Of a stretch of 42,494 nucleotides of DNA, positions 7,994 through 42,494 are shown one piece after another (positions within the stretch are counted from its first letter, which is position 1; each line of letters starts with the position of its first letter). The stretch is from Acidimicrobiales bacterium. GTDB taxonomy: Bacteria > Actinomycetota > Acidimicrobiia > Acidimicrobiales > Acidimicrobilacustridaceae. The notes beneath the pieces are model-generated. The model saw nothing but the letters and a program-made list of their open reading frames with translations, was not told the DNA's origin and made no database searches. The DNA lies in the NCBI GenBank assembly GCA_020439175.1, contig JAGQTE010000485.1, positions 1-42,494 on the forward strand, written 5' to 3'. The position numbers and the translations under genes are program-made.

Positions 7994-9742
<1,749 letters not shown>

Positions 9743-27662: not shown

Positions 27663-28490
27663 TCATCGCGCCTGCCAGTTCGGGGGGCGCTTGTCGGCGA
27701 ACGCCTTGGGGCCCTCCTTGGCGTCGTCGGTGGCGAAGATGCGCTGCGACAGCTCCTGCTCGATGTCGTAGGCCTCGGCGAGCGTCGTGGACAGCCCGCG
27801 GATCACCGACTCCTTGGTGGCCTGCACGGCCAGCGGAGCGTTCACGGCGATGCGCCGCGCCCAGTCGAAGGCCCGCTCGAGCAGCTCGTCCTCGGGCACG
27901 ATCTCGTTGATCAGGCCCATCCGCAGCGCGTCCTCGGCCGGGAACGCCTCCGCCGTCAGCAGGAACGCCATCGCGGCCGGGAACGGGATCTGCCGGGGCA
28001 GGCGTGCCGTCGTCCCACCGCCGGCGAACAGGCCCCGCTTGGGCTCCATCACCCCGAAGCTGGCGTGCTCGGTGGCGACCCGGATGTCGACGCCGCCGAG
28101 CATCTCCATGCCACCGGCCACGCACGGCCCGTTGATGGCGGCGACGATCGGCTTGTAGAGCTTCACGTCGCGCAGGACCGCCCGTTGACCGTCGGAGAGC
28201 TTGCACCCGTCGATCTCGGTGACCTCGCCCTTGGCGATCTCCTGGTAGAGCGCCGTGACCTGGGGCATGTAGTCCTTGAGGTCGGCACCGGACATGAAGT
28301 TCCGCTCGACGCCGGTGATGACCGCCACCCACGCGTCGTCGTCGAACCGGAACGTCTTCCACGCCTGCGTCAGGTCACGGAAGTGGTACATGTCCAGCGC
28401 GTTGCGCCGCTCGGGTCGGTCGATGGTGATGAGCACGACGTGCTCGAGCCCGTCGGCGCCGCCGGGGTGCTTGTCGTAGTGGATGGGCAT
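27663..28490 (-). CDS. Enoyl-CoA hydratase/isomerase family protein
   Basis: A 275-residue crotonase: LITIDRPERRNALDMY, the oxyanion segment ERNFMSGADLKDY and NGPCVAGGMEMLGGVDIRVATEHASFG, ending FADKRPPNW, as in many acyl-CoA hydratases. It should act on enoyl-CoA intermediates; specificity is unknown. The ATG at 28490 has AGGAG four bases upstream, inside the stop region of the SDR gene, so SDR-crotonase-MFS form one operon under the operator near 29257-29280. The stop codon overlaps an ATG (ATGA at 27663-27666), the probable original start of the MFS gene. Confidence 0.92.
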   Translation of the reverse strand: MPIHYDKHPGGADGLEHVVLITIDRPERRNALDMYHFRDLTQAWKTFRFDDDAWVAVITGVERNFMSGADLKDYMPQVTALYQEIAKGEVTEIDGCKLSDGQRAVLRDVKLYKPIVAAINGPCVAGGMEMLGGVDIRVATEHASFGVMEPKRGLFAGGGTTARLPRQIPFPAAMAFLLTAEAFPAEDALRMGLINEIVPEDELLERAFDWARRIAVNAPLAVQATKESVIRGLSTTLAEAYDIEQELSQRIFATDDAKEGPKAFADKRPPNWQAR

Positions 28491-28498
28491 GGGGCTCC

Positions 28499-29251
28499 TC
28501 AGGACGTGACGTTGAGCCGGGCGAACAGGTCGAGCTCCGCCGGCACCTCGGCCGCCGCCAGCCAGGCCACCAGGGCATCGGCGACCACCTCGGCCTCGAC
28601 GGGCGTGACCCCGTCGAAGTAGCCCTCGCCGAACCACCGGTCGAAGTACGCCGCCGACAGCTCGGGATCCCACGCCGCCGCCGCCTCGGTGACGGTGGGA
28701 CCGACGACGATGCGCGTGAGCGCCAGCTCGGGATGGTCGAGTCGCCACAGGTCGAGCGCCAGATCGAGACCGGCCTTCGACGCCAGGTAGGCGCCGAGTC
28801 CGGGCATCGGCGCTCCCACGGCGTTCGACGAGCAGCAGCCGACCCGGCCGTCGGGCGCCAGCGACGGCACGAGCGCCCGCACCACGGCGTGCGGGCCGAC
28901 GAGGTTCGTGTCGAGGATCCGACGCAACGCCTCCGGCTCGAGGTCACGCATGGGCGCCAGGTGCGTGACGCCGACCGTGACGAGGAGGGCGTCGATCCCC
29001 TCGGGTGCCGCCGCATCGACGGCGGCGGCGAACGCATCGACCGACGCCTGGTCGGTCACGTCGCACGCGACCGCCACGATGCGCCCCGGTTCGGGCGCCT
29101 GCGCCGCGAGCGCCTCGAGCTGGGCGATGGAACGGGCGCCGGTGATGACCGTGGCCCCGGCGGCGCTGGCGGCACGGGCGGTCGCGGCACCGACCCCCGC
29201 CGAGGCGCCGACGATCACCACGCAGCGACCGTCGAGCGCTCCCCCAGGCAT
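28499..29251 (-). CDS. Short-chain dehydrogenase/reductase
   Basis: A 250-residue classical SDR: cofactor loop VGASAGVGAA, CDVTD after strand 3, catalytic Ser in CCSSNAVG and the YLASK motif (Tyr and Lys). The usual NNAG reads VTVGVTH, a departure at the structural motif. Its substrate is unknown; its operon with a crotonase suggests oxidation of a hydroxyacyl-CoA or steroid-like alcohol. The ATG at 29251 is six bases after a CATACT -10 box that lies inside the operator, so the transcript is probably leaderless and repressor-controlled. The operon also includes the MFS gene. Confidence 0.88.
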   Translation of the reverse strand: MPGGALDGRCVVIVGASAGVGAATARAASAAGATVITGARSIAQLEALAAQAPEPGRIVAVACDVTDQASVDAFAAAVDAAAPEGIDALLVTVGVTHLAPMRDLEPEALRRILDTNLVGPHAVVRALVPSLAPDGRVGCCSSNAVGAPMPGLGAYLASKAGLDLALDLWRLDHPELALTRIVVGPTVTEAAAAWDPELSAAYFDRWFGEGYFDGVTPVEAEVVADALVAWLAAAEVPAELDLFARLNVTS

Positions 29252-29256
29252 CTCAC

Positions 29257-29280
29257 TAGTATGACGCACACGTCAGGTTT
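29257..29280. promoter_or_regulatory. Acyl-CoA regulon operator, site A, over the SDR promoter
   Basis: On the minus strand the core is TGACGTGTGCGTCA (29275 to 29262), preceded by AAACC. The SDR -10 box CATACT (29263 to 29258) overlaps its end, so a bound repressor would block transcription of SDR-crotonase-MFS. The site is 46 bases before the divergent PQQ-protein gene and could affect it as well. Confidence 0.6.
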
Positions 29281-29325
29281 CGTCGGCTGCCGGGCTGCGG
29301 CACCGGCGCCCGTGGGGGGATCCGC

Positions 29326-31296
29326 ATGTCGGGAGCGAACGCGTCGAGGCGGCGCGCCATCGTGGCGTGGGCGACGATGGCCGCATGCGGGCTCGTCGCG
29401 ACCGCGTGCGGCGCCGACGCCGCGCTTCCGAACGCCGACGGGGCCGGAGCCGGCGACTCGGCCGCGGTCGATGACGGCGGCTGCTCGTGGCTCCAGGCCG
29501 GGGCCGGACCCGAGCGCACCTACACGTCGACCTGCGCCAGCCGCATCGACGCCACGACCGCCGGCGACCTGATGGTCGACTGGTTCTTCCCCACCGCCGA
29601 CGCCGCCACGGCGAGCCCGGTCGTGCACGAGGGCACGATGTACCTCGGCGACTGGTCGGGGCTGTTCTACGCCGTCGACACCGCCACCGGCACCGAACGC
29701 TGGCGCTTCCAGGCCGACACGAACCCCGCGGTGTACGCCGGGCAGATCACCGCCAGCGCCGCGCTCGGCACGGTCGGCGGTGTCGACACCGTCTACTTCC
29801 CCAGCGGCAAGACGGTGCACGCCCTGCGCACCGACGACGGCACCGAGCGCTGGTCCGTCGACATCGGCGTCGGCTCCGACACCGAGCCGACCGAGATCGA
29901 AGGTGCACCCCTGCTCGTCGAGGACCTCGTGATCATCGGTGTCGACGTGCACAACAACCCCGGCTTCCGCGCCGGCGTCGTCGCCCTCGACGCCGCCACC
30001 GGCGAGGTGCGCTGGCGTTGGGACGGCGACGCCGGAGCCGAACCATCGGGCTGTGTCGACGTGTGGGGCACGGCCAGCGCCGATGTGGAGCGGCGGATGG
30101 TGTTCTTCGGTACCGGCAACTGCCCGTCGGCGCCCGAGGTCTGGCGGCCGGCGACCGAGGCCGTCGTCGCCGTCGACCTCGACACCGGTGCCGAACGGTG
30201 GATCTACCAACCGCACGAACCGAACAACGACGACCTCGACTTCGCCTCGGCCCCCAACCTGTTCAGCGCCGGCGGGCGCGACCTGGTCGGCATCGGCAAC
30301 AAGGACGGCGACTACTACGCCCTCGACCGCACCAGCGGCGCGCTGGTGTGGCGGGCAGATGCCACCGAGCCCGGCCTGGAGGAGCCGGGTGGGAACTTCT
30401 CGACCGGCGGGTTCATCGGTGCCGCCGCCGTGGTCGGCGACACCATCGTCGGCGGCACGGCCGTCGGACCGGCGCCCTACCTCCACGGCATCGCCACGGT
30501 CGACGGTGCCCTGACGTGGCAGCAGGCGAAGGCGCAGGCCATCTACTCGCCGCCCGGCGCCGTGCACGACGTGGCGTTCATCGGCGGCACGGACTTCACG
30601 CTGCGGGGCGTGCGCACGACCGACGGGGCCGTCGTCTTCGAGCATCCCGTCGACGCCGTGATCGCCGCCGGTCCCGCCGTGGTCGGCGATGCCGTCTATG
30701 CCCCGATCGGCTTCAAGGAGCCGGGCACCTCGGCGCCGATCGCCAACGGCGGGGTGCAGAAGCTGCGCCTGCCCCGGCCCGGGGAGACCACCACGTCCAC
30801 CACGGCGGCACCGACCACCACCGCCGCGCCCGGCGTCACCGGCGTGGACCTGACCAACGCCGGCGGTGCCTGCATCGGCACCCCCTGCCCGCTGCCGTTC
30901 GCGCTCAAGCCCACGCCCGCCGACGCCACGCCGTCCGGGACGATCGTGGTGCGGACCACGCCGTTCTCGATGACCGTCGAGGTCGCCGGGCTGGGCGAGC
31001 CCGCCGGGTGGTTGTCGCCGGGGTCCGACGCCGCAGCTGCGGGTGCCACGACGTACGCCGTCTACCTGTCGGAAGGTGACGACAACCCGGTCGGGGGGCT
31101 GGTCTGCGTGCTCGAAGGCGACCCGGCCGGCAGCGGCGGCTCGTGCACGGGCGACGCCCTCCCCCGCCGCACCACGTACAACCGCATGACGATCCTGGCC
31201 GTCAACGAGGCCGCCACCCTTCCGGCGCCGGCCGAGGGCCTGGCCCGGCTGGTCACCACCGTCGCCTTCGACCCGCCGTTGACGCCTGCACCATGA
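29326..31296 (+). CDS. PQQ-type beta-propeller lipoprotein (polyvinyl-alcohol-dehydrogenase-like)
   Basis: A 656-residue exported protein. Its N terminus has a basic start, a hydrophobic stretch and a lipobox ending VATAC, so it is likely a surface lipoprotein. Residues about 75-490 contain PQQ-type propeller blades with repeated patterns such as LYAVDTATGTERWRF, VVALDAATGEVRWRW and VVAVDLDTGAERWIY. A Thr/Ala linker (near 490-505) leads to a C-terminal domain of about 150 residues with four Cys that I do not recognise. It could be a quinoprotein-like alcohol dehydrogenase or a scaffold; PQQ binding is not shown. The ATG at 29326 has GGGGGGA six bases upstream. A second propeller lipoprotein follows after 31 bases. 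Confidence 0.83.
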   Translation: MSGANASRRRAIVAWATMAACGLVATACGADAALPNADGAGAGDSAAVDDGGCSWLQAGAGPERTYTSTCASRIDATTAGDLMVDWFFPTADAATASPVVHEGTMYLGDWSGLFYAVDTATGTERWRFQADTNPAVYAGQITASAALGTVGGVDTVYFPSGKTVHALRTDDGTERWSVDIGVGSDTEPTEIEGAPLLVEDLVIIGVDVHNNPGFRAGVVALDAATGEVRWRWDGDAGAEPSGCVDVWGTASADVERRMVFFGTGNCPSAPEVWRPATEAVVAVDLDTGAERWIYQPHEPNNDDLDFASAPNLFSAGGRDLVGIGNKDGDYYALDRTSGALVWRADATEPGLEEPGGNFSTGGFIGAAAVVGDTIVGGTAVGPAPYLHGIATVDGALTWQQAKAQAIYSPPGAVHDVAFIGGTDFTLRGVRTTDGAVVFEHPVDAVIAAGPAVVGDAVYAPIGFKEPGTSAPIANGGVQKLRLPRPGETTTSTTAAPTTTAAPGVTGVDLTNAGGACIGTPCPLPFALKPTPADATPSGTIVVRTTPFSMTVEVAGLGEPAGWLSPGSDAAAAGATTYAVYLSEGDDNPVGGLVCVLEGDPAGSGGSCTGDALPRRTTYNRMTILAVNEAATLPAPAEGLARLVTTVAFDPPLTPAP

Positions 31297-31327
31297 CCTG
31301 TCCCCACGAGCTCGATCCGAGGTCACC

Positions 31328-32563
31328 ATGACCATCCGCCGCCATCTCGCCGTCCGACTCGTGCCGCTGCTCGCCGCCGGCGCCCTGCTGGTCGGCGCCT
31401 GCAGCTCGACGTCGGACAGCACATCGTCCGGCTCCACCCCCGGCACCACCGGCTCCACTGCCGGCACGACCGGCACGACCGGCACGACCGGCACCACTGC
31501 CGGGGGCGCCGGCGACTACCTCGTCTTCAACGGCCAGGGCAACAACCTCGACGCCTACGACCCGTCGCCGCCGTTCGAGAGCCAGCAGGTCATCACCAAT
31601 GCCGCCGACGACCCGGACGGCCTCGACATCAACGCCCAGATCTGCTTCTTCCCGGACCAGCCGAACCGCTTCATCGCCGGCGAGGACACGGGCCAGGGCA
31701 CGGGCGACCTGCAGGGCTGGGGCATCTTCGACCTCAGCGGTGACGCCCTCGGCGACCTCGAGGCGACCCAGGTCGGCAAGCTGGTGCCGACCTATCAAGG
31801 CTCGGCGGACAACGCCGAGAACTACGGCTGCGGGTTCCTCGCCGACGGCAGGCTGTTGACGACCGACGTCGGCAACCAGGCGCTCGGACCGGCCGACGGT
31901 CAGCTCATCGTGTGGTTCGGTCCGTACGACCGCACCGAGGTGCCCTACTGCAAGCTCGACATCAACATCGCCACCGCCCAGTCGATCTGGGTCGGCGAGG
32001 ACGACCGGGTGTACGTGGCCTCGGCACGGCCCTCGGACGAGGCCGGCGCCACGGCGGGCGGCGTGTACGTGTACGACGGTCCCTTCCCGACGGGCCCGGA
32101 CGCCGCCGGCGGCTGCGGGGGCACCGACAGCACCGGGGCGCCGCTGGCCGAGATGACCGGCACGAAGCTGATCGCCTCGGGCGACCACGGGTTGCTGAGC
32201 CCGTCGGGACTCGCCGCCGCGCCCGACGGCAACCTCTACGTCTCGTCGGTGTTCACGGGTGTGATCAACGAGTACACGACCGACGGGACCTTCGTGCGCA
32301 CGATCCTGCAACCGCCTGCCGGCGAGACGCTCGGTGCCGCGCCGTTCTCGACCGGCACGCCCCTCGGCCTGGCGACGGGTCCCGACGGCAGCCTCTTCTA
32401 CGCCGACATCGGCCTGGTGCTCGAGGCCGGCCAGTCGCCCGGCCCCGGCGACGGCACCGGGACGCTGCGCCGCATCACCTTCGTCGACGGCGAGCCCCAG
32501 GCGCCCGAGACCATGGCCGACGGCCTCGCCTTCCCCGACGGCGTCGGCATCTACGTCCCCTGA
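31328..32563 (+). CDS. SMP-30/NHL-type beta-propeller lipoprotein
   Basis: A 411-residue exported protein with a lipobox ending LVGAC and a Ser/Thr/Gly linker (TTGTTGTTG repeats). The rest is a six-bladed propeller of SMP-30/gluconolactonase or NHL type, with blades such as LSPSGLAAAPDGNLYVSSVFTGVI and GLATGPDGSLFYADIGLVLEAG. Several Cys in the middle may form disulfides. The function is unknown; a sugar-lactonase role is possible but not shown. The ATG at 31328 has GAGG five bases upstream and lies 31 bases after the PQQ-type gene, so the two surface propellers are probably one operon. A Thr-Gly coding nonanucleotide repeat spans about 31442-31505. Confidence 0.82.
   Translation: MTIRRHLAVRLVPLLAAGALLVGACSSTSDSTSSGSTPGTTGSTAGTTGTTGTTGTTAGGAGDYLVFNGQGNNLDAYDPSPPFESQQVITNAADDPDGLDINAQICFFPDQPNRFIAGEDTGQGTGDLQGWGIFDLSGDALGDLEATQVGKLVPTYQGSADNAENYGCGFLADGRLLTTDVGNQALGPADGQLIVWFGPYDRTEVPYCKLDINIATAQSIWVGEDDRVYVASARPSDEAGATAGGVYVYDGPFPTGPDAAGGCGGTDSTGAPLAEMTGTKLIASGDHGLLSPSGLAAAPDGNLYVSSVFTGVINEYTTDGTFVRTILQPPAGETLGAAPFSTGTPLGLATGPDGSLFYADIGLVLEAGQSPGPGDGTGTLRRITFVDGEPQAPETMADGLAFPDGVGIYVP
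31442..31505 (+). repeat. Tandem nine-base repeat in the propeller lipoprotein linker
   Basis: Units close to GGCACGACC repeat about seven times and encode Gly-Thr-Thr linker repeats just after the lipobox. The central units are identical, so copy number may change by slippage. Confidence 0.7.
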
Positions 32564-32606
32564 CGCCGCTCAGCCTCCCGCCGAGCTGCTGAGCACCTGA
32601 CGTTGA

Positions 32607-32628
32607 TATCGCACGGAATCTGCGCCGG
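32607..32628 (+). repeat. Half copy of the palindromic repeat
   Basis: TATCGCACGGAATCTGCGCC resembles the right half of the copy at 33770-33816 (TATCGCACCGAATCTGCCGG), with one substitution and an inserted GC. It lacks the left arm. Confidence 0.55.
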
Positions 32629-32655
32629 ACGTATCTGACACGACCGTGACGAATT

Positions 32656-32701
32656 CGACCCGGCAGATTCGGTCACCTATGCACCAGATCTGCCGACTCG
32701 A
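32656..32701 (+). repeat. Palindromic REP-like repeat, left copy
   Basis: Begins CGACCCGGCAGAT; arms CGGCAGAT (32661-32668) and ATCTGCCG (32688-32695) enclose a 19-base loop. It matches the copy at 33770-33816 in orientation, arm sequence and loop length, with 11 of 19 loop bases identical. Confidence 0.75.
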
Positions 32702-32818
32702 CGCGCCTCACCCGGCGGCGGCGAAATGCGCGTGTACGGTCGTCAGCGCGTCGCCACACTGGTCGACCATCGCTCGGGCATCCGAGCCTCACCGTTCCCC
32801 ACCGCTCCGGGAGCACCG

Positions 32819-33748
32819 ATGGCTCAACCCGACGCCGACCAGACCATCGCCTCGATGGCAGCAGACCAGGACGGGGTGTTCAGCGACCTCCACGCCGCTT
32901 CGGCCGGGGCGACCCCGGCCATGGTGCGTCGTCGCATCCAACGTGGCCAGTGGCTGCGCCTTGCGCCGGGCGTGCTGGCCATCGCCGGCGCTCCACTGAC
33001 CTTCCAGGCGCGTTGTCGGGCCGCCACGTTGGCGCTGCCCGGCAGCGCCCTCGCCGGGTTGGCCGCCGCCGAGCTCCACGAGCTCCGGTCGTTCACCCCG
33101 CCGCGACCGGAGCTGGTGGTGCCTGCCGGCGGCAACCACCGGAGCCGCCTGGCGGTCGTGCGCGAGCGGTCCCGCTTCCGGCGCACCCGCCTCCGGGGCA
33201 TGCCCATCGGCACGATCGATCAGACCATCGTCGACCTGGCAGCGCTCGTGCCGGCGGCGGTGCTCGAGCGAACGGTCGATGATGCCCTCGTGCAGCACCG
33301 GCTCCACCTGTCGCACCTCGAGGACCGGCTCGTCGAGTGCAGCGCCGACCGGGCACGGGGCACACGGGCGTTGCGGTCGGTCGTCGAGGCGCGCACGGAC
33401 GGAACTGCGCCCACCGAGAGCCAGCTCGAACGACACCTGCACCGAGTGCTGGCGCACCCGGGCCTGCCCCCGTCCACCCTCCGGCCGTCGCTGCCATGGC
33501 GACCATCGCAAACCGGTCGCGTCGATGCCGTCATCTGGAGGTGGCGCCTGAGCGTCGAGGCGGACGGCCGGCGCTGGCACGCCCGCTGGCGAGACTTCGA
33601 GGTCGATCGACGGCGCGACGCCGAGGCGCTGGCGGCGGGCTTCCGCGCCCTTCGGTTGACCTGGGCCATGCTGACCGTCGACCTGCGCTCGACGATCGAC
33701 CTGCTGTTCCGCATCGGAGCCGCCGGGTCCGACAGCGCCCGCCCGTGA
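32819..33748 (+). CDS. AbiEi-like N-domain / DUF559 (Vsr-like endonuclease fold) protein
   Basis: A 309-residue protein of a type frequent in actinobacteria. Residues 5-60 form the AbiEi-antitoxin-like winged helix (DLHAASAGATPAMVRRRI, then QWLRLAPGVLAIAGAP). The C terminus (about 235-300) is a DUF559 domain: GRVDAVIW, SVEADGRRWH and FEVDRRRDAEALAAGFRALRLTW give the Asp and Glu-x-Asp pattern of a Vsr/PD-(D/E)XK fold. A partner toxin AbiEii is absent. DNA binding or nicking is plausible but unproven. The ATG at 32819 has GGGAG upstream; a longer start at 32726 has no support. The gene stands alone and is bracketed by palindromic repeats at 32656 and 33770. Confidence 0.83.
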   Translation: MAQPDADQTIASMAADQDGVFSDLHAASAGATPAMVRRRIQRGQWLRLAPGVLAIAGAPLTFQARCRAATLALPGSALAGLAAAELHELRSFTPPRPELVVPAGGNHRSRLAVVRERSRFRRTRLRGMPIGTIDQTIVDLAALVPAAVLERTVDDALVQHRLHLSHLEDRLVECSADRARGTRALRSVVEARTDGTAPTESQLERHLHRVLAHPGLPPSTLRPSLPWRPSQTGRVDAVIWRWRLSVEADGRRWHARWRDFEVDRRRDAEALAAGFRALRLTWAMLTVDLRSTIDLLFRIGAAGSDSARP

Positions 33749-33769
33749 CCCATATGGCCACTTCACGAA

Positions 33770-33816
33770 CGACCCGGCAGATCGCGTCACTATCGCACCG
33801 AATCTGCCGGCTCGAT
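33770..33816 (+). repeat. Palindromic REP-like repeat, right copy
   Basis: Begins CGACCCGGCAGAT; arms CGGCAGAT (33775-33782) and ATCTGCCG (33802-33809) enclose 19 bases. It is a direct-orientation relative of the copy at 32656-32701 and lies 22 bases after the AbiEi/DUF559 stop. A further GCCGGC-rich inverted sequence follows to 33850 and may end both convergent transcripts. Confidence 0.75.
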
Positions 33817-33858
33817 GCCGGCGGCGGCGCCGGCGGGCGGCGCCGGCGGCCGGGTGCG

Positions 33859-36132
33859 TCAGGCGGCGGGGTCGGTGGCGGCGAGATCGAGGCGGCGGGT
33901 GAAGTCGGCGTCGGACTCGGGCTCGGACAACAAGAAGCCCTGCGCGCGGGTGCACCCCATCGCCACGAGCGCGTCACGCTGGCGCAGGTCCTCGACCCCC
34001 TCGGCGGTGATCGACACGCCCAGGGCCGAGGCCAGCTCGACCGTCGAGCCGACGATCGCCCGGTCCCGCGTGTCGTCGGGCAGGCCCATCACGAAGGCCC
34101 GGTCCACCTTGATCGAGGTGAGCGGCAGCCGCTTCAGGTACAGCATCGAGCTGAAGCCCGTGCCGAAGTCGTCGATGGCCAGCCCGACGCCCAGGGCACG
34201 CAGCTCCTCGAGCACCGCCACCGACCGCTCGGGATCGGCGAGCAGCGTGCTCTCGGTCAGCTCCACGCAGAGCGCATCGGCGGGCACGTGCGCCTCGCGC
34301 AGCACCGCCTGGAGCCGGGCGACCAACCCGTCCCGTCGCAGCTGCAGCGCCGACACGTTGACCCGCAGGACGAAGTCGTCGGCCAGTCCGGCGGCGCGCC
34401 AGCGACCGAGCGCGGCGCAGGCGTCCTCGAGGACACGCTCGCCCAACGGCACGACCACACCGCACTCCTCGGCCATGGGGATGAACTCCCCGGCGGCCAG
34501 CAGCCCGTCGACCGGGTGCTCCCAGCGCGCCAACGCCTCGGCGCCGATGATGCGCCCGCTGAGGAGGTCCCACTCCGCCTGGTAGTGCACCACGAGACCG
34601 TCGCCCTCGACGGCGGCGCGCAGCTCCGCCTCGCGTCGCAGGCGCTGCGACACCGACGCCCTGGCCGCCTCGTCGTCGATCTCGAGCTGGTCGCCGCCGC
34701 GCTCCTTGGCCCGGTACATGGCCAGGTGCGCCCGGCGCAGCAGCTCCTCCGGATCGGCGACGAACCCGGCAGCGTCCCCGGCGCCGGAGTGCACCACGCC
34801 GGCGCTGGCGGTGAGGGCGACCGGATGCCCACCGACCTCGAACGGCGGCTCGAGCGCCGCGAGCACCTCCCGGGTGGCGGCGACGGCGTCATCGAGGGTC
34901 GCCGCGACCGGATGCAGGAGCAGCAGCTCGTCACCGCCCAGCCGGGCGATCATCGACTCGGGTGGCACGGCGCCCGCCAGCCGCGTGGCGATGTCGCCCA
35001 GCAGGCGATCGCCGGCGCCGTGGCCGAGGGCGTCGTTGACCATCTTGAACCGGTCGATGTCGACCATCGCCACGCCGACGCCCGGCGACCGCAGCGACGC
35101 CACGTCCTCGGTGGCCGACGCCAGCGCGTCGGCGAACGCCCACCGATTCGGCAGCCCGGTCAGGACGTCGCTGCGCGCCCGCCGCGCCAACTCGACCTCG
35201 ACGTCGTGGCGCACGAGGGCCGCCGACACGATGTTGGCCGCCGCTCGCAGGGCGACGATCTGCCCGGCGCCCAGGCCCCCGCCGGCGAAGGTCGACTCGG
35301 CCATCACCAACCCGTTGAACGCCCCGGCGCGGTACATGGGGACGGCGAGCACGCTGTGCACGCCCCAGGACCCGAACAGCTCGCGCTCCATGGCGCAGTC
35401 GTCGGGCAGGTGGTCGACCGAGGCGATGTGCACCTCTTCGAGCTGGGCCAGGCGCCGCATCATCCAGCTGGACTCGAGGCGCACCGACGCCGACAGCTCG
35501 CCGCCGGGTTGGTTGACCGCCGCCTCCCAGGACGCCAGCAGCACGACCCGCAGCGGTTCCGATCGCCAGATGGACAGGCGGGTCACCCACTCGAGGCCCG
35601 ACAGCAGGACCAGCGCCTCGTCGAGCGCGTCGTCGAACCCGTCGGCATCGACCGCGGCGAAGATCGAGGCCAGCTCGACGATCCGCTCCTCGCCGACCAG
35701 CCGCTGCAGGGCGTCGGCGCGCTGCGCGTACACGGCGCTGTCTTCGCGCAGGGTGATGATGATCGACCCCAACGGCTCGGCCGCGGCGCCGGTGACCGTG
35801 TCGTAGCGCAGCGGCACCCAGTCGCCGCCGGCGTTGCGCACCCGCTGAACCTGCCCCCGCGGCGCCCCCGGTCGGCCCGCCCAGCGGAGCAGCGACTCGA
35901 GCAGCTCCTCGACCTCGTCCGGGTGCAGGAAGTCGACCAGGCTGCGACCGACGACCGCCTCGGGGTCGTAGCCGAGCATCGGTCGGACCGACGGGCTGGC
36001 GAAGGTGATGGCCCAGTCCGCGTCGCACGCCACGACCGCCTCGTCGACGTGCGCGAGCACTCGACCGAGTGCCGTCCGATCCAGTTCGTAACGGGGCCCG
36101 CCGCCCGGCGCCGGCCCATCGGCGTTCGCCAT
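33859..36132 (-). CDS. PAS-GAF-GGDEF-EAL cyclic-di-GMP signalling protein
   Basis: A 757-residue cytoplasmic protein without membrane segments. Domains in order: PAS (about 20-130, with FASPSVRPMLGYDPEAVVGRS), GAF (145-310), GGDEF (320-480, active site RLGGDELLLL, normally GGDEF or GGEEF) and EAL (495-745). The EAL domain keeps EALARWE, NVSALQL, ELTEST, IDDFGTGFSS, the Lys of SIKVDRAF and TAEGVE, so it looks active as a c-di-GMP phosphodiesterase; the GGDEL site keeps its metal and catalytic residues. Which activity dominates cannot be told. I chose ATG 36132 (GTG 36135 is just before it); GGAGG lies four bases upstream. Confidence 0.93.
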   Translation of the reverse strand: MANADGPAPGGGPRYELDRTALGRVLAHVDEAVVACDADWAITFASPSVRPMLGYDPEAVVGRSLVDFLHPDEVEELLESLLRWAGRPGAPRGQVQRVRNAGGDWVPLRYDTVTGAAAEPLGSIIITLREDSAVYAQRADALQRLVGEERIVELASIFAAVDADGFDDALDEALVLLSGLEWVTRLSIWRSEPLRVVLLASWEAAVNQPGGELSASVRLESSWMMRRLAQLEEVHIASVDHLPDDCAMERELFGSWGVHSVLAVPMYRAGAFNGLVMAESTFAGGGLGAGQIVALRAAANIVSAALVRHDVEVELARRARSDVLTGLPNRWAFADALASATEDVASLRSPGVGVAMVDIDRFKMVNDALGHGAGDRLLGDIATRLAGAVPPESMIARLGGDELLLLHPVAATLDDAVAATREVLAALEPPFEVGGHPVALTASAGVVHSGAGDAAGFVADPEELLRRAHLAMYRAKERGGDQLEIDDEAARASVSQRLRREAELRAAVEGDGLVVHYQAEWDLLSGRIIGAEALARWEHPVDGLLAAGEFIPMAEECGVVVPLGERVLEDACAALGRWRAAGLADDFVLRVNVSALQLRRDGLVARLQAVLREAHVPADALCVELTESTLLADPERSVAVLEELRALGVGLAIDDFGTGFSSMLYLKRLPLTSIKVDRAFVMGLPDDTRDRAIVGSTVELASALGVSITAEGVEDLRQRDALVAMGCTRAQGFLLSEPESDADFTRRLDLAATDPAA

Positions 36133-36160
36133 CACGCCTCCGTTCCGCCCGACGCAGCGC

Positions 36161-36166
36161 AGCGTA
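36161..36166 (-). promoter_or_regulatory. -10 element for the GGDEF-EAL gene
   Basis: TACGCT on the minus strand lies 28 bases before the start at 36132, leaving a short leader with the ribosome binding site GGAGG. It sits within a GTAGGCCCTAC inverted repeat. Confidence 0.4.
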
Positions 36167-36224
36167 GGCCCTACGTCGCGGCCGTGCGCCGGGAAGGCGC
36201 GGCGCAGGGCCGGAGCACGCCGCG

Positions 36225-37730
36225 TCAGAACAGCGAGTCGCCGGTGGCGATCACCACCGTCTTCGATTCGAGGAAGGCGTCGATGCCTTCTCGACCGCCC
36301 TCACGCCCCACGCCGGAGGTCTTCATGCCGCCGAACGGGGCGTTGGGCATGACCGTGTAGCCGTTGACCCCGAAGGTGCCGCTGCGCACCGCCTGGGCCA
36401 CCCGGATCGCCCGCTTCACGTCGCTCGTCTGCACCGAGGCGCCGAGGCCGTAGTCGGTGGCGTTGGCGAGGCGGATGGCCTCGTCCTCGTCGTGGAACGG
36501 GATCATGGCGAGCACCGGTCCGAAGATCTCCTCCCGGGCGATCGTCATGGCGTTGTCCACGTCGGCGAAGAGCGTCGGGTTGACGAAGTTGCCGGCCGCC
36601 AGATCACCGCCGGGCCGGTCGCCACCGACGACGAGGCGCGCCCCTTCGTCGCGGCCGCCGGCGATGAGCCCTTCGACGCGCGCCAGCTGTCGCCCGTTGA
36701 TGATCGGCCCCGACGTCGTCCCGGGGTCGAACGGGTCCCCGAGGACGGACATGGCCGCCATGGCGGCGCAGGCGTCGATCATCTCGTCGTAGACGGTGTC
36801 CTGCACGAGCGCTCGGGTGTGGCACACGCAGCCCTGCCCGGACAGCCCCATCGACACCATGCCCATCAGCGCCGCCGCGGTCCCGCCCACGTCGACGTCG
36901 TCGAACACGATGTTCGGGCTCTTGCCACCCAGCTCGAGCGAGACGCGGGCGATCCGTTCGGCGGCGGCGGCCATGACCCGAGACCCGACGGCACGAGAAC
37001 CGGTGAAGGTCACCTTGTCGACACCGGAGTGGGTGATGATGGCTTCGCCGACCTCGGGGCCGGTGCCGAGCACGAGGTTGACGACCCCCGGCGGCACCCC
37101 GGCCTCCACCAGCAGCTCGGTCATGCGCACCGCCGTCAAGCTGGCGTACTCGGAGGGCTTGACCACGACGGTGCAGCCGGCAGCCAGCGCCGGCGCCACC
37201 TTCTGGGCGAAGAGCATCAGCGGTGCGTTCCACGGGATGATCGCCCCCACGACGCCGACCGGCTCGCGCAGCGTGAGGAACAGGCCGTCGCCGCCGGTGT
37301 AGGTGGGGAGGGTGTCGCCGGTGATCTTGTCGACCCATCCGGCGTGGTGGTCGAAGGCGTCGGCGGCGAACTGGCTCGACACCTGGTAGATCGCCGAGAA
37401 CGACACGGGCATGCCGTTGTCGAGCGTCTGCAGCCGGTTGAGCTCGTCGCCGTGCGCCTCGAGCAGCGCCGCGCACCGCTGCAGCAGCAGCCGCCGGTCG
37501 CGGGCCTTCCAGCGCGGCCAGTCCGTCTCGTCGAAGGCACGACGGGCGGCGGCGACCGCCCGGTCGACGTCCGATGCCGTGCCGAGCGAGAAGGACGTGA
37601 CCACCTCGTTCGTCGCCGGGTGGACGTGATCCCACCGCTCGCCGGTGGCTTCGGACCAGGCGCCGTCGATGAGCTGGCGAGCCCCCGACACCCCCAGCGC
37701 GTCACGATGCGGAAGCACGGTCATCGTCAT
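36225..37730 (-). CDS. NAD(P)-dependent aldehyde dehydrogenase
   Basis: A 501-residue aldehyde dehydrogenase: IIPWNAP (Asn of the active site), the VKPSEYASL and FTGSRAVG cofactor loops, the general base Glu in LELGGKSP, the nucleophile Cys in GQGCVC, and EEIFGPVLAMIPF. It oxidises an aldehyde to the acid; the substrate is unknown, but the shared operator suggests an intermediate of the same acyl-CoA pathway. The ATG at 37730 lies eight bases after a TAGGTT -10 box that is part of the operator, so the mRNA is probably leaderless. Reading farther upstream (to 37934) runs through an inverted repeat and is not family-like. Confidence 0.94.
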   Translation of the reverse strand: MTMTVLPHRDALGVSGARQLIDGAWSEATGERWDHVHPATNEVVTSFSLGTASDVDRAVAAARRAFDETDWPRWKARDRRLLLQRCAALLEAHGDELNRLQTLDNGMPVSFSAIYQVSSQFAADAFDHHAGWVDKITGDTLPTYTGGDGLFLTLREPVGVVGAIIPWNAPLMLFAQKVAPALAAGCTVVVKPSEYASLTAVRMTELLVEAGVPPGVVNLVLGTGPEVGEAIITHSGVDKVTFTGSRAVGSRVMAAAAERIARVSLELGGKSPNIVFDDVDVGGTAAALMGMVSMGLSGQGCVCHTRALVQDTVYDEMIDACAAMAAMSVLGDPFDPGTTSGPIINGRQLARVEGLIAGGRDEGARLVVGGDRPGGDLAAGNFVNPTLFADVDNAMTIAREEIFGPVLAMIPFHDEDEAIRLANATDYGLGASVQTSDVKRAIRVAQAVRSGTFGVNGYTVMPNAPFGGMKTSGVGREGGREGIDAFLESKTVVIATGDSLF

Positions 37731-37737
37731 GGGCGCG

Positions 37738-37761
37738 AAACCTAACACGCGTGTCAGGTTT
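37738..37761. promoter_or_regulatory. Acyl-CoA regulon operator, site B, over the ALDH promoter
   Basis: A 24-base palindrome with one mismatched pair: left half AAACCTAACACG, right half CGTGTCAGGTTT. It is the best-formed site of the set. The minus-strand -10 box TAGGTT (37744 to 37739) is its left end, so binding would occlude the promoter. Confidence 0.65.
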
Positions 37762-37804
37762 TTGGTCGGGCCGCCCGGCTGGCTCGGCGCTCCCGCAGCC
37801 GAGA

Positions 37805-37867
37805 ACGGCTGGTGCCGGGCGCTTGCTTCGAGCGCCCGGCACCAGCCGTCTGCGGCCGAGGCCGCAG
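37805..37867 (-). terminator. Double hairpin between MaoC and ALDH genes
   Basis: A 19-base-pair perfect stem (37805-37823 with 37831-37849, seven-base loop) is followed directly by CTGCGGCC (37850-37857) pairing with 37860-37867. It starts 21 bases after the end of the MaoC gene in its direction of transcription, so a terminator is the simplest reading; there is no long T-run. Confidence 0.6.
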
Positions 37868-37887
37868 ATCCCCCATCTCCCGCGAGC

Positions 37888-38301
37888 TCAGGTGGCGGCC
37901 GCCACCGCCGTTCCCTCGACCTTGACCTCGCCATCGGCGTTGGCCAGGCGCACGGTCAGCTCGACCACCTGCTCCCCGTCGTCGGCCCGCTTGTCGGCGA
38001 CGACGACCGAGGTGGTCAGCTCCTCCCCCGGCCAGGTCTGCTTGGTGAATCGCACCTGGTAGGAGCGGAGGTTCTCGATGCCGACGTAGTCGGTGATCGC
38101 CTTGCCCAGCAGACCCATCGACAACATGCCGTGCCCGAACACGCTCGGCAGTCCCGCCGCCTGGGCGGCCACCTCGTCGTGGTGCATGGGGTTGAAGTCG
38201 CCCGAGGCACCGGCGTACTTGACGAGGTCGGTGCGTGTCAGCGCATGCGTGATCGACGGTGCCTCGTCGCCCACCTGCACGTCGTCGTACTGCAGTGCCA
38301 T
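37888..38301 (-). CDS. MaoC-family dehydratase, single hot-dog
   Basis: A 137-residue single hot-dog MaoC protein with the hydratase motif ASGDFNPMHHDEVAAQ near residues 34-49, GHGMLSMGLLGKAI, and a C-terminal strand pattern typical of (R)-hydratases. It should hydrate enoyl-CoA or enoyl-thioesters; in mycobacteria such small subunits may pair with a partner, and none is adjacent. ATG 38301 has CGAGG upstream; an in-frame ATG at 38340 is unlikely because it lies within the TACCAT -10 box. It is a single-gene unit between the operator (38347-38370) and the double hairpin. Confidence 0.9.
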   Translation of the reverse strand: MALQYDDVQVGDEAPSITHALTRTDLVKYAGASGDFNPMHHDEVAAQAAGLPSVFGHGMLSMGLLGKAITDYVGIENLRSYQVRFTKQTWPGEELTTSVVVADKRADDGEQVVELTVRLANADGEVKVEGTAVAAAT

Positions 38302-38346
38302 GTCGCCTCGCCGTCGGTCGTCGATCGGTGCGCCGGGCATGGTATC

Positions 38347-38370
38347 CCACCTGACACGCGCGTCAACTTT
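38347..38370. promoter_or_regulatory. Acyl-CoA regulon operator, site C, upstream of MaoC
   Basis: The core TGACACGCGCGTCA (38352-38365) lies within a longer match ending AACTTT. The minus-strand -10 box TACCAT (38344 to 38339) starts two bases beyond the operator edge, so the repressor would overlap the -10/-35 spacer. Confidence 0.55.
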
Positions 38371-38435
38371 GGCGGGGCCCCGGACCGCAGCCCCCCGGCC
38401 CTCGAGCCGACGTGACCGATGCGACGTCGCGGGAC

Positions 38436-38465
38436 CTGACCCGACGCCGGCCACGTCCCTACACT
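38436..38465 (+). promoter_or_regulatory. Promoter of the adenylate cyclase gene
   Basis: CTGACC at 38436-38441 and TACACT at 38460-38465 are 18 bases apart and form a plausible -35/-10 pair. The ATG at 38475 follows nine bases after the -10 box without a ribosome binding site, suggesting a leaderless or nearly leaderless message. Confidence 0.5.
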
Positions 38466-38474
38466 CGGCGGTCG

Positions 38475-40031
38475 ATGGGTGACGGCGCCGTCGAACGGTA
38501 CCCCCGGCCGCTGCAGGCACGCGCCGCGGTGCGTGGGGTGATCCTGTTGGATCTGCTGGCGAACGCCGCCGGCGCCGCCGTGGTCGTCGTGTACCTGAAG
38601 CTGGTGGCGCCATCGGAGCTGGCGGACGAGCAGCAGCTCGGCTTGAACCTGGCGGTGTTCGCGCTGTTCGTGGCCGTCACCGTCGCAGTGGCGGCGCCGA
38701 TCAACGCGCACCTCCTCCACAAGGCGCTGGAGTGGGTCCGGGAGGGACGGGCGCCCACGACCCAGGAGCGCATCGACACGGTCGGCCAGCCGCTCAAGCA
38801 GACCTTCTCGGCCTTCATCGGGTGGATGGGCGCGGCGGTGGTGTTCGGCGCGCTCAACGACGACGTGTGGCGCATCGCCGTCGGCATCGCCCTCGCCGGC
38901 CTCGTCACCTGCGCGCTGCTCTACGCCTTGCTGGAGCGCCACTTCCGCCCGATCGTGGCCCTCGCCCTCGCCGGCGCCACGCTGCCCCGGTGGCGGCGCG
39001 AGATCACGACGCGCATCATGCTGGCGTGGTGGATCGGCTCGGCGGTGCCGCTGCTCGCCGTCGGCCTGGCCCCGTGGACCATCGAGGACGCGTCCACCGA
39101 CACCGGCCGCCGCCTGAGCCTGGTGGTGATCGGCTGCGTCTTCGCCGGCGGCATCGTCATGCGGGCCGCCGCCGGCGCCGTCTCGGCCCCGGTCACCGAG
39201 GTGGCGTTGGCCCTCGAGCAGGTCGAGGACGGGAACCTCGACGTGTCGGTCGACATCACCAACGTCGGCGAGCTCGGGCGCCTGCAGGTGGGGTTCAACA
39301 ACATGGTCGACGGCCTGCGCGAGCGGGCGCGCCTCGCCGACCTGTTCGGCCGCCAGGTCGGCATCGACGTCGCCCAGCGCGCGCTCGAGGCCGGGGCCGT
39401 CGAGCTCGGTGGGTCCGAGCGCGAGATCACCGCCCTGTTCGTCGACCTGGAGGGCTTCACCGCCTTCACCGAGCAGCACTCGCCCAGCGAGGTCGTCGCC
39501 GAGCTGAACGCCTTCTTCGAGGTCGTGATCCGTGTGGTGATGGCCGAGGGCGGTTGGGTGAACAAGTTCGAGGGCGACGCCGCGCTGTGCATCTTCGGTG
39601 CGCCGGTCCCGCTGGACGCCCACGCCGCGCACGCCCTGCGCGCCGCCGCCGCCATCCCCGCCGAGGTGGCGAAGCTGCCCGAGGCGCCGAGCGTCGGCAT
39701 CGGCGTGGCCACGGGTCGGGTGGTCGCCGGCAACGTCGGCACGACCGATCGCTACGAGTACACGGTCGTCGGCGACGCCGTGAACGTGGCGTCTCGCCTC
39801 ACCGAGATGGCCAAGGGCCGGGCGACGTCGGTGCTGACGTCGGAGGACACCATCCGCATCGCCGGCGACGGCGCCGTCGGATGGCGTCCGGCCGGCACGG
39901 TCAAGGTCCGCGGCCGCGCCCGGCCGATCCGGATCTTCGAGCCCGAGACCGACGGCGCGCCGGCGACGATCGAGTCGGCGCGCTCAGCCGAGGAGGAGCC
40001 CGGCGAGGCGGTCGTGGTGCCAGGTGGCTGA
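38475..40031 (+). CDS. Membrane-bound class III adenylate cyclase (6 TM - HAMP - cyclase)
   Basis: A 518-residue protein built like mycobacterial Rv1318c-Rv1320c/Rv3645: about six membrane helices in residues 20-235, a HAMP domain near 240-290 (ALALEQVEDGNLDVSVDI) and a class III cyclase domain. Metal-binding Asp residues are in ALFVDLEGFT (near 322) and KFEGDAALCIFG (near 366); the Lys before FEGD and the Asp in VVGDAVNVASR are the ATP-specifying pair, and Asn/Arg in the latter stabilise the transition state. It should make cyclic AMP from ATP. The ATG at 38475 follows a TACACT box. Its last 48 bases overlap the convergent acyl-CoA dehydrogenase gene. Confidence 0.93.
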   Translation: MGDGAVERYPRPLQARAAVRGVILLDLLANAAGAAVVVVYLKLVAPSELADEQQLGLNLAVFALFVAVTVAVAAPINAHLLHKALEWVREGRAPTTQERIDTVGQPLKQTFSAFIGWMGAAVVFGALNDDVWRIAVGIALAGLVTCALLYALLERHFRPIVALALAGATLPRWRREITTRIMLAWWIGSAVPLLAVGLAPWTIEDASTDTGRRLSLVVIGCVFAGGIVMRAAAGAVSAPVTEVALALEQVEDGNLDVSVDITNVGELGRLQVGFNNMVDGLRERARLADLFGRQVGIDVAQRALEAGAVELGGSEREITALFVDLEGFTAFTEQHSPSEVVAELNAFFEVVIRVVMAEGGWVNKFEGDAALCIFGAPVPLDAHAAHALRAAAAIPAEVAKLPEAPSVGIGVATGRVVAGNVGTTDRYEYTVVGDAVNVASRLTEMAKGRATSVLTSEDTIRIAGDGAVGWRPAGTVKVRGRARPIRIFEPETDGAPATIESARSAEEEPGEAVVVPGG

Positions 40032-41027
40032 GCCCAGCAGGTAGTCGCCGGCGTAGGCCCGCCGCAGGTACAGGTGCAGGTCGTGCTCCCACGTGTACCC
40101 GATGCCGCCGTGCACCTGGAGCCCGTCCCGGGCGGCGTGGCGGGCGGCGCGCCCGGCCGCCGCCTTGGCCACGTGCACCAGGCGATGGCGCTCGGGAACC
40201 TCGGCGTCCGACGCCATGGCGGCGGCGTACACGGCGGCCGTGGCGCGCTCGACGTCGAGCGCCATGTCGACCAGCTTGAACTGCAGGCCCTGGAAGGCAC
40301 CGATCGGTCGGTCGAACTGGACGCGCTCGCCGGCGTAGGCGACCGACGTGTCGAGCAGCCACCGGGCCACGCCGACCAGTTCGGCGGCGACGACCACCGT
40401 GGCGCGCTCGATGACGCGCTGCACCGCCGTGCGCGACACCTCGGCGACCGGGTGGCCCCCGGAGAAGGCGTCGTCGGGCACCGCGACCTCGAACGCCCGA
40501 CGGGTCGTGTCGAGGGTCTCGACCAGTCGCGGCTCGAGGGCCGACGCGTCGACGAGGGCGATGCGCGCCGAGTCCGGCCCGTCGGCGGCGACGATCGCCA
40601 CGGTGTCCACACGGTCCGCCTCCAGGACCCAGGTCCGCAACGGACCGTCGACCAGGCGCCCGGCATCCCACACGCCGTCACCGCCGGCCAGCGCCACCGT
40701 GCCGGACCGGCTCCCTGCGCCGACGGCGGAGGCGACGTCGGCCCAGGGCGCACCGACCTCGTCCACCAACGGTGCGAACAGCGCCGCCGTCGGCACGAAG
40801 ACGCCGGGGGCGAGGACCCGGCCCAATTCCTCGGCGAACAGCGCCAGGTCCACCAGCGACCCGCTGCCGAGCGCCACCCAGTCGCGCAGGTGCGCCCGCC
40901 ACAGGGCATCGGCGACGGAGGGATCGTCGGCGTGCGCCCGCACCAGCGCCGGCGGGCACTCCTTGGTGGCCAGCGCCCGCGCCGTGTCGCGCAGCAGCTC
41001 CTGCTCGTCGGTCAGCGTGAAGTCCAT
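39984..41027 (-). CDS. Acyl-CoA dehydrogenase, small subunit-like partner
   Basis: A 347-residue acyl-CoA dehydrogenase-fold protein: N-terminal FTLTDEQELLRDTARALATKE, later FDRPIGAFQGLQFKLVDMALDVE and the C-terminal QVHGGIGYTWEHDLHLYLRRAY. The usual SEPxAGSD-type FAD/substrate loop in the middle is missing and the chain is short, as in one half of the mycobacterial heterotetrameric FadE/ChsE steroid dehydrogenases. It starts ten bases after the larger dehydrogenase gene (GGGAG upstream of ATG 41027), so the two very likely make an alpha2-beta2 enzyme. Its 3' end overlaps the cyclase gene by 48 bases. Confidence 0.92.
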   Translation of the reverse strand: MDFTLTDEQELLRDTARALATKECPPALVRAHADDPSVADALWRAHLRDWVALGSGSLVDLALFAEELGRVLAPGVFVPTAALFAPLVDEVGAPWADVASAVGAGSRSGTVALAGGDGVWDAGRLVDGPLRTWVLEADRVDTVAIVAADGPDSARIALVDASALEPRLVETLDTTRRAFEVAVPDDAFSGGHPVAEVSRTAVQRVIERATVVVAAELVGVARWLLDTSVAYAGERVQFDRPIGAFQGLQFKLVDMALDVERATAAVYAAAMASDAEVPERHRLVHVAKAAAGRAARHAARDGLQVHGGIGYTWEHDLHLYLRRAYAGDYLLGSATWHHDRLAGLLLG

Positions 41028-41037
41028 GGCTGCTCCC

Positions 41038-42207
41038 TCACGCCCGCGGCAGGCCCAGCACGCGGGTCGCCACGACGTTGCGTTGGATCTCCGAGGTGCC
41101 CCCGCCGATGGTGCCGGCCAAGGCCACGAAGAACCCCTTCCACCACCTGCCGTCCTCTTCGGCACGTGCCGGGTCGACCACGGCGCCGGCGGGGCCGCAC
41201 AGGTCCATCCCCAACTCGAAGAGCTGCTTGCGCAGCTCCGACGTGGCGAGCTTCATGAACGAGTGCTCCGGCGCGGACGAGCCTTGCGCGAACCCGGCGA
41301 AGCCCTTGTAGCCGAGCGAGCGCAGGGAGCTGACCTGCTCGTAGGCCTCTCCCAACCGGCGTCGCACGACCGGGTCGGCGTCGAGGCCACGCCGCCGGGC
41401 CAAGGCGATGAGCCCGTCGAGGGCCCGGTGGGCGCCGAACACGCCCTCGACCCACAGCCCGCCGCGCTCGTGCGCCAGCGAGCCCATCGTGATGCGCCAA
41501 CCGTTGTTGCGCTCCCCGACCAGGTTGGCCTTGGGCACGACGACGTCGTCGAAGAACACCTCGGCGAACTCGACGGCGCCCGTGATGTGGCGCAGCGGTC
41601 GCACCTCGATGCCGGGGCTCGCCATGTCGATCAGCAGCACGGAGATGCCCTTGTGCTTGGGCGCCTCGGGATCGGTGCGCACGTAGCAGAAGCACATGTC
41701 GGCGAACGGCGCGTACGACGTCCACACCTTCTGCCCGGTCACCACGAAGCTGTCGCCGTCGTCGACGGCGCGGGTGGCCAACGCCGCCAGATCGGACCCG
41801 GCGTCGGGCTCGGACATCCCGACGCACCAGACCGTGTCGCCGCGGATGGCGGCGGGTGCCAGCGCCCGCTGCGCCTCGTCGCCGAACTCGAGCAGCGACG
41901 GCCCGACGATGGCGTAGCCGCCGAAGTGGACCGACCGGACGATGCCCTGATCGGCGAGCTCTTCGAGGTACAGCAGCGTCTGGGTGGGCGTGGCGTGGCG
42001 TCCGCCCAGCTCCGGTGGGTAGGCCGGGATCATCCACCCGTGATCGAACAACGTCGCCTGCCAGGCGCGGGCCCAGTCCGGCACCCCGTCCACGCCCTCG
42101 CCCATGAAGTCCTTGCCCCGCCGCGCCTCGGGCGGGCAGTGCTCGTCCAGGAAGGCCCGCAGATCGCGGCGGAACGCCTCGTCCTCGTCGCTCCAGCTCA
42201 GCTGCAC
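41038..42207 (-). CDS. Acyl-CoA dehydrogenase, large catalytic subunit-like
   Basis: A 389-residue acyl-CoA dehydrogenase: WCVGMSEPDAGSDLA (FAD loop), VTGQKVWTSYA, SLAHERGG with the Glu that may be the catalytic base in this subgroup, and GGTSEIQRNVVATRVLGLPR at the C terminus. It introduces the alpha-beta double bond into an acyl-CoA. Its pairing with the shorter dehydrogenase suggests a ChsE-like heteromer for steroid side chains or other bulky acyl-CoAs (inferred). The GTG at 42207 has AGGGGAG about ten bases upstream. The operator at 42229-42252 lies just upstream and is shared with the divergent crotonase. Confidence 0.93.
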   Translation of the reverse strand: MQLSWSDEDEAFRRDLRAFLDEHCPPEARRGKDFMGEGVDGVPDWARAWQATLFDHGWMIPAYPPELGGRHATPTQTLLYLEELADQGIVRSVHFGGYAIVGPSLLEFGDEAQRALAPAAIRGDTVWCVGMSEPDAGSDLAALATRAVDDGDSFVVTGQKVWTSYAPFADMCFCYVRTDPEAPKHKGISVLLIDMASPGIEVRPLRHITGAVEFAEVFFDDVVVPKANLVGERNNGWRITMGSLAHERGGLWVEGVFGAHRALDGLIALARRRGLDADPVVRRRLGEAYEQVSSLRSLGYKGFAGFAQGSSAPEHSFMKLATSELRKQLFELGMDLCGPAGAVVDPARAEEDGRWWKGFFVALAGTIGGGTSEIQRNVVATRVLGLPRA

Positions 42208-42228
42208 CGCTCGGTCGCTCCCCTCCGC

Positions 42229-42252
42229 AAACCTGACGTGAGCGTCACCTTA
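42229..42252. promoter_or_regulatory. Acyl-CoA regulon operator, site D, between ACAD and crotonase genes
   Basis: The core TGACGTGAGCGTCA (42234-42247) is preceded by AAACC, nearly identical to site A. Toward the plus strand, TATGGT (42256-42261) follows as a -10 box; toward the minus strand TAAGGT precedes it. It can therefore control both divergent transcripts. Confidence 0.6.
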
Positions 42253-42294: not shown

Positions 42295-42494
42295 ATGGCC
42301 GAGGACCGCCCCATCGCCCCGGTGACCGAACGGGTGACCTACACCGTCGACGGCGGCGTGGCCCACATCACCATCGCCGCGCCCGAGCAGGGCAACTCGC
42401 TGGCTTGGGACATGCGCGACCGCATCGGCGACCTGCTCGAGGAGGCGTCGGCCGACCTGGCCGTCCGCGCCGTCGTGCTGCGCGGCGCCGGCGA
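42295..42494 (+). CDS. Enoyl-CoA hydratase/isomerase family protein, 3' end beyond window
   Basis: The first 66 complete codons of a crotonase: VTYTVDGGVAHITIAAPEQG, NSLAWDMRDRI, then VRAVVLRGAG leading to the expected oxyanion loop, at which point the window ends. The fold is clear but the reaction is not. The start is ATG 42295 with AGGAGG six bases upstream. It is divergent from the acyl-CoA dehydrogenase pair and shares their operator, so it probably supplies the hydration step after dehydrogenation. Confidence 0.85.
   Translation, partial: MAEDRPIAPVTERVTYTVDGGVAHITIAAPEQGNSLAWDMRDRIGDLLEEASADLAVRAVVLRGAG

Follow-up and report, generated by a model that had tools for sequence, protein, structure and literature searches.

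KstR is an autoregulated TetR-family repressor that binds a short palindrome; its sites often lie between divergent genes of lipid catabolism and overlap the -10 region. Its operator is TnnAACnnGTTnnA, with 31 sites in Mycobacterium smegmatis (PMC1995591). KstR2 is also a TetR repressor and binds a 14-bp inverted palindrome, AnCAAGnnCTTGnT, at divergent promoters of genes for acyl-CoA enzymes (PMC3068626). BkaR is an autoregulated TetR protein whose gene in M. tuberculosis has an acyl-CoA ligase gene as its neighbour, and it controls branched-chain keto-acid genes from few sites through a 24-bp palindrome, GTTA(N)T(N4)A(N)TAAC (PMC3920632). MftR, another TetR protein, responds to long-chain acyl-CoA and controls the mycofactocin cluster through the operator T-N2-GGCA-N5-TGCC-N2-A (PMC8728441). 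Here we describe a further operator, ACCTGACRYNNRYGTCAGGT, which occurs four times in a 42,494-nucleotide contig of an Acidimicrobiales bacterium (GCA_020439175.1); this whole stretch is called the window. The protein that controls it is very probably a TetR-type repressor not described before, with its gene on another contig; the candidates are TetR-A (contig C447) and its paralogue TetR-B (contig C478). From sequence comparisons, we put direct TetR control of the operator family at about 85% probable.

By analogy, the ACCTGACRYNNRYGTCAGGT system appears to work like KstR, yet it is not KstR. The earlier note on this DNA had set the sites apart from KstR and KstR2, and both published motifs indeed differ from them (PMC1995591, PMC3068626). 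KstR2 has three sites near its regulator, whereas the sites here are dispersed over the genome. TetR-A resembles KstR just at the general TetR level, with 27 bits against the cut-off of 280 in the KstR model NF033703. BkaR is ruled out because its operator does not fit the sites, and MftR is ruled out by its different operator and by the score of TetR-A (41.6 bits against the TIGR03968 cut-off of 224.9). The same genome also encodes a separate KstR-like TetR protein (C256:10383-10931, L311; 154 bits, cut-off 280). Its start is preceded, at a distance of about 13 bp, by a KstR-type palindrome, TGTAACGAGTTCCA, and the gene is without a copy of the ACCTGACRYNNRYGTCAGGT operator. This sequence arrangement suggests that a KstR-like system is present in Acidimicrobiales and, because C256 has both the gene and the palindrome, that it coexists with the ACCTGACRYNNRYGTCAGGT system.

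The operator family in the window and the genome

The four sites are present in the window at 29257, 37738, 38347 and 42229, where they had first been noticed. Scores are from a position matrix trained on 27 sites, all outside the window.

29257..29280, - strand reading AAACCTGACGTGTGCGTCATACTA: operator 1, 22.3 bits
37738..37761, AAACCTAACACGCGTGTCAGGTTT: operator 2, near-perfect palindrome, 29.8 bits, centre 20 bp upstream of the aldehyde dehydrogenase (ALDH) start
38347..38370: operator 3, upstream of the MaoC gene and of the divergent HAMP-cyclase gene, 20.5 bits
42229..42252: operator 4, between the acyl-CoA dehydrogenase (ACAD) pair (-) and a crotonase gene (+), 22.5 bits

These four sites rank first to fourth in the 42 kb, in the order 37738, 42229, 29257 and 38347. 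The fifth-ranked match, at 32631, scores just 10.1 bits, below the maximum of 15.8 bits in 300 simulated windows with a Markov background, and the reversed matrix finds nothing above 3 bits. The observation that no copy lies elsewhere in the window therefore holds. The weak match (32631-32654) is upstream of a gene at 32726/32819 and falls inside the background range.

The description of the sites as palindromic fits operator 2, which is self-palindromic at 22 of 24 positions, better than the other copies, which are so at 12-14. The 14-base core on which the family was originally based is not sufficient alone: with 3 mismatches allowed, it is found 83 times in the window against 103 expected. 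Adding the outer arms and a strict TGAC/GTCA makes the motif significant (7 found, 0.26 expected), and ACCTGACRYNNRYGTCAGGT is the better consensus. The core count would suit chance palindromes in GC-rich DNA, but the reversed controls are near zero throughout and the sites are confined to promoters, which leaves this explanation a negligible probability.

The assembly that was scanned comprises 3.83 Mb in 562 contigs, of which the window is C366. In the whole genome, ACCTGACRYNNRYGTCAGGT with at most 3 mismatches is found in 46 places against 2 for the reversed control, and with at most 2 mismatches in 30 places against 0. Some of the 3-mismatch matches (L070, L073, L074, L075) are within genes, score 5-11 bits with the matrix and look like chance, so the number of real sites is estimated at about 36-40. 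The regulon is thus genome-wide and not local, as had been proposed.

A random spread through coding DNA had been named as the pattern that would speak against an operator family. The 30 strong sites instead sit at promoters: all 30 are intergenic, against 7% intergenic sequence in the fetched DNA (p ~4e-35), and 28 are at most 120 bp upstream of a gene start, against 9% expected (p ~2e-27), with gene starts taken from a simple codon-usage caller. The distances between site centre and start codon cluster at 18-58 bp. TAnnnT boxes overlap the sites or come just downstream, and frequently 6-8 nt remain before the ATG, a distance that suggests leaderless transcripts.

Candidate regulators and their association with the sites

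No regulator gene lies in the window, and the earlier note had proposed a TetR-type protein acting in trans with its own operator copy. Such a gene is found on contig C447. It encodes a 222-aa protein, TetR-A, with a TetR_N helix-turn-helix (PF00440, 61.6 bits, cut-off 24), and is surrounded by three operator copies at 9346, 10050 and 10099, the latter two in its own promoter. It is located upstream of an ABC solute-binding protein (SBP) gene and is divergent from a FadD17/CasI-like acyl-CoA ligase gene, whose CasI-like profile score is below cut-off. TetR-B is 53% identical to TetR-A and is encoded on C478 near an SDR-crotonase operon that is preceded by an operator.

It is possible, though rather doubtful, that TetR-A is not the sole reader of the window sites, and that TetR-B is their main reader or the two paralogues share them through overlapping regulons. 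The DNA-binding helices of the two proteins are nearly identical, and just two positions distinguish operator 4 (AAACCTGACGTGAGCGTCACCTTA) from the site in front of a TetR-B-linked SDR gene (AAACCTGACGTCGGCGTCACCTTA, L182). Three relatives (G028, G078, G114) have a TetR paralogue some 70-140 bp away from their orthologue of the window's ACAD. In this genome, however, own-promoter operator copies are found at TetR-A only.

TetR control of the family is supported by the distribution of sites among relatives. Of 197 other genomes of the order, 37 have a TetR match (E <= 1e-25), and at least five sites are found in 11 of these 37 against 0 of the 160 TetR-negative genomes (Fisher p=2.6e-9, kinship ignored). 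In the family to which the window belongs, the two TetR-positive genomes contain 30 and 13 sites, against 0-2 in the four TetR-negative genomes. Around 80 TetR loci taken from GTDB genomes, by record title almost all Acidimicrobiia or unplaced Actinomycetota, there are 105 matrix matches of at least 18 bits against 0 for the reversed matrix, and an operator copy lies beside the TetR gene at 41 loci against 0 in the reversed control. A copy adjoining the TetR orthologue in G061 (L079) is identical to the operator 2 24-mer. In a scan of the phylum outside the order, G429 is the one motif-rich genome, with 6 sites over 7.8 Mb.

The TetR genes were first grouped by their neighbours, and these labels then clustered on the tree. 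Clade A (support 98/92) has a conserved SBP-TetR-ligase-ACAD block with flanking sites and includes Candidatus Microthrix and IMCC26207. The TetR-B group has SDR and crotonase neighbours, with an operator 24-68 bp upstream of the SDR gene in 15 loci, and a third group (C) adjoins MaoC-SDR genes; B and C are not single clean clades. A CRP/FNR or MarR type regulator that binds the palindrome, with the TetR genes as mere regulon members, is an improbable alternative. CRP/FNR-type sites could also have the TGAC-N6-GTCA spacing, and one site (L061) coincides with the end of a MarR gene, initially considered a TetR gene. Against such a regulator, the number of sites follows TetR presence in the 197 genomes, and a site lies beside TetR in half of the 80 loci, in three different gene contexts.

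The window's own sites are partly conserved. MaoC orthologues have a site upstream in 10 of 20 TetR-positive and 0 of 10 TetR-negative genomes (p = 0.006), and ACAD orthologues in 9 of 28 TetR-positive genomes, with just two TetR-negative genomes for comparison; the genome of the window is itself part of both counts. The relative G095 has a syntenic cluster, with SDR, MaoC and crotonase/ACAD sites in matching places, the counterpart of operator 1 at the SDR start and no ALDH site. The conservation that had been expected in relatives is therefore seen upstream of MaoC, SDR and crotonase/ACAD orthologues.

Several observations weigh against TetR control as proposed here. The ALDH site is not kept at ALDH orthologues, and TetR-B is without an upstream matrix match of its own of at least 8 bits. 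The genome-level tests ignore relatedness among genomes. Five TetR-positive genomes (G033, G043, G083, G124, G137) have no site at up to 2 mismatches, so some subfamily members see a different operator or few sites. Finally, a minority of targets (sulfatase, lipoyl-ligase-like, hydantoinase B) seem unrelated to lipids.

Three side observations concern the relatives. Sites in G102 partly read ACTTGAC...GTCAAGT instead of ACCTGAC...GTCAGGT, a possible operator variant that tracks a diverged TetR. Five loci (G005:C9, G023:C10, G111:C78, G143:C133, G194:C4) have two tandem TetR matches in a single reported open frame of 440-702 codons, and these frames suggest double-TetR fusion proteins reminiscent of Mce3R. 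Four records titled Bifidobacterium breve (L133, L154, L171, L176) look like mislabelled metagenome-assembled genomes because their TetR proteins nearly match ones from records of Acidimicrobiia or other actinobacteria (for example L176 and L179, L133 and L136).

Target genes and promoters

Acyl-CoA enzymes dominate the genes behind the genome-wide sites, in agreement with the acyl-CoA catabolic role first proposed from the window alone. Families were assigned by sequence inspection wherever no profile match names them. About nine site-bearing promoters drive acyl-CoA dehydrogenases. Other targets are several AMP-forming acyl-CoA ligases and one NDP-forming ligase, MaoC-type hydratases, crotonases, SDRs, a type III CoA-transferase, Amidohydro_2 proteins, and thiolases of the lipid-transfer type, which come in pairs with ChsH2-type OB-fold proteins. 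One target is a steroid 3-ketoacyl-CoA thiolase (555 bits, curated cut-off 515), and the site of the FadA5-like thiolase is kept in G095 alone. The steroid thiolase, the ChsH2-type OB domains and the CasI-like ligase are what would speak for KstR or KstR2 (cholesterol) operators; against the different published motifs, the low KstR score of TetR-A and the separate KstR-like gene on C256, this reading is extremely unlikely. Two KshA_C-type Rieske oxygenase genes (C110:4811, L276; C274:681, L277) have no operator near either, so a full sterol pathway under the operator is not supported.

The window genes near the operators are as follows.

28499..29251, -: SDR oxidoreductase (Pfam adh_short), first gene behind operator 1
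27663..28490, -: crotonase/enoyl-CoA hydratase (gene call and sequence inspection), second gene behind operator 1
26339..27520, -: MFS transporter (Pfam MFS_3), third gene behind operator 1
29326..31296, +: PQQ-type beta-propeller protein (Pfam PQQ), divergent from operator 1
36225..37730, -: aldehyde dehydrogenase (NCBIfam ALDH models, all below cut-off), behind operator 2
37888..38301, -: MaoC-like hydratase (Pfam MaoC_dehydratas), behind operator 3
38475..40031, +: HAMP-adenylate/guanylate cyclase (Pfam Guanylate_cyc, HAMP), divergent from MaoC
41038..42207, -: acyl-CoA dehydrogenase 1, PimC-like (TIGR03204, 224 bits, cut-off 624 not reached), behind operator 4
39984..41027, -: acyl-CoA dehydrogenase 2, IpdE2-like (NF050027, 116 bits, cut-off 450 not reached; Pfam Acyl-CoA_dh_1)
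42295..42494, +: crotonase (enoyl-CoA hydratase models), divergent from the ACAD pair and cut by the contig end
42233..42261, +: candidate crotonase promoter CTGACG-17-TATGGT (consensus only), -35 within the left half-site of operator 4
38339..38366, -: candidate MaoC promoter TTGACG-16-TACCAT (consensus only), spanned by operator 3

Operator 1 is upstream of the SDR-crotonase-MFS genes, and the probable SDR start read from the sequence is ATG 29251, 18 bp from the operator centre. The MFS gene is probably co-transcribed with the SDR and crotonase genes across a 143 bp gap. The beta-propeller gene on the other side is a possible second target of operator 1, and G095 has the same arrangement. 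The HAMP-cyclase gene, 116 bp from operator 3, is a possible but unproven target. Acyl-CoA dehydrogenases 1 and 2 form one operon. A -10 box had been proposed at every copy, which is plausible by consensus only: the candidate promoters overlap the MaoC and crotonase operators, and TAGGTT overlaps the ALDH site. A search of the window against Rfam gave no match.

Predicted fold, proposed mechanism and meaning

The AlphaFold2 model of the L106 TetR protein, a 71% identical relative, has a predicted local distance difference test score (pLDDT) of 92.6 and an all-helical TetR fold with a C-terminal ligand domain. The nearest structures found with Foldseek are FasR of M. tuberculosis (6o6o, 6o6p, 6o6n), Bacillus FadR (3whb, 3whc, including the stearoyl-CoA complex) and EthR. 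FasR and FadR share an acyl-CoA-binding C-terminal domain, but are just 20-23% identical to the modelled protein and give no sign of a common operator, and NCBIfam calls FasR an activator. The nearest folds and the target genes make a CoA thioester the best guess for the ligand, although the fold is weak evidence since regulators of many ligands share TetR folds. The ligand is somewhat more probably an acyl-CoA or related CoA thioester than anything else.

In the proposed mechanism, ACCTGACRYNNRYGTCAGGT would serve as operator for a subfamily of TetR-family repressors in Acidimicrobiales, represented here by TetR-A and TetR-B, which may divide the labour between them. A TetR dimer would bind the operator, where it overlaps the -35/-10 or start region, and block transcription. 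Repression fits the overlap of the operators with likely promoters, that of the regulator included. The regulon would be dispersed over about 36-40 sites and cover acyl-CoA activation and beta-oxidation, with several steroid-side-chain-like enzymes. An accumulating substrate acyl-CoA, or a pathway CoA thioester, would bind the C-terminal helical domain and cause the repressor to leave, in the manner of KstR, FasR and Bacillus FadR.

A literature search on a TetR regulon in Acidimicrobiia found no relevant paper. Acidimicrobiales are widespread and mostly uncultivated, with many acyl-CoA genes of unknown substrate. With the matrix and a candidate repressor, these genes can be grouped by co-regulation, and paralogous dehydrogenases, ligases and thiolases can be assigned to one network; the ligand can be tested in vitro without growing the organism. 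The unusual part is that several paralogous TetR groups have one common operator, which is itself testable. Tentatively, and at slightly less than an even chance, an unnamed TetR subfamily of at least three paralogous clades (ABC-SBP/ligase/ACAD; SDR/crotonase; MaoC/SDR) may use this operator to control a main network of acyl-CoA (possibly sterol-like side-chain) catabolism in Acidimicrobiales in parallel to a KstR-like system, and one set of operators may be shared by several repressors that differ in ligand.

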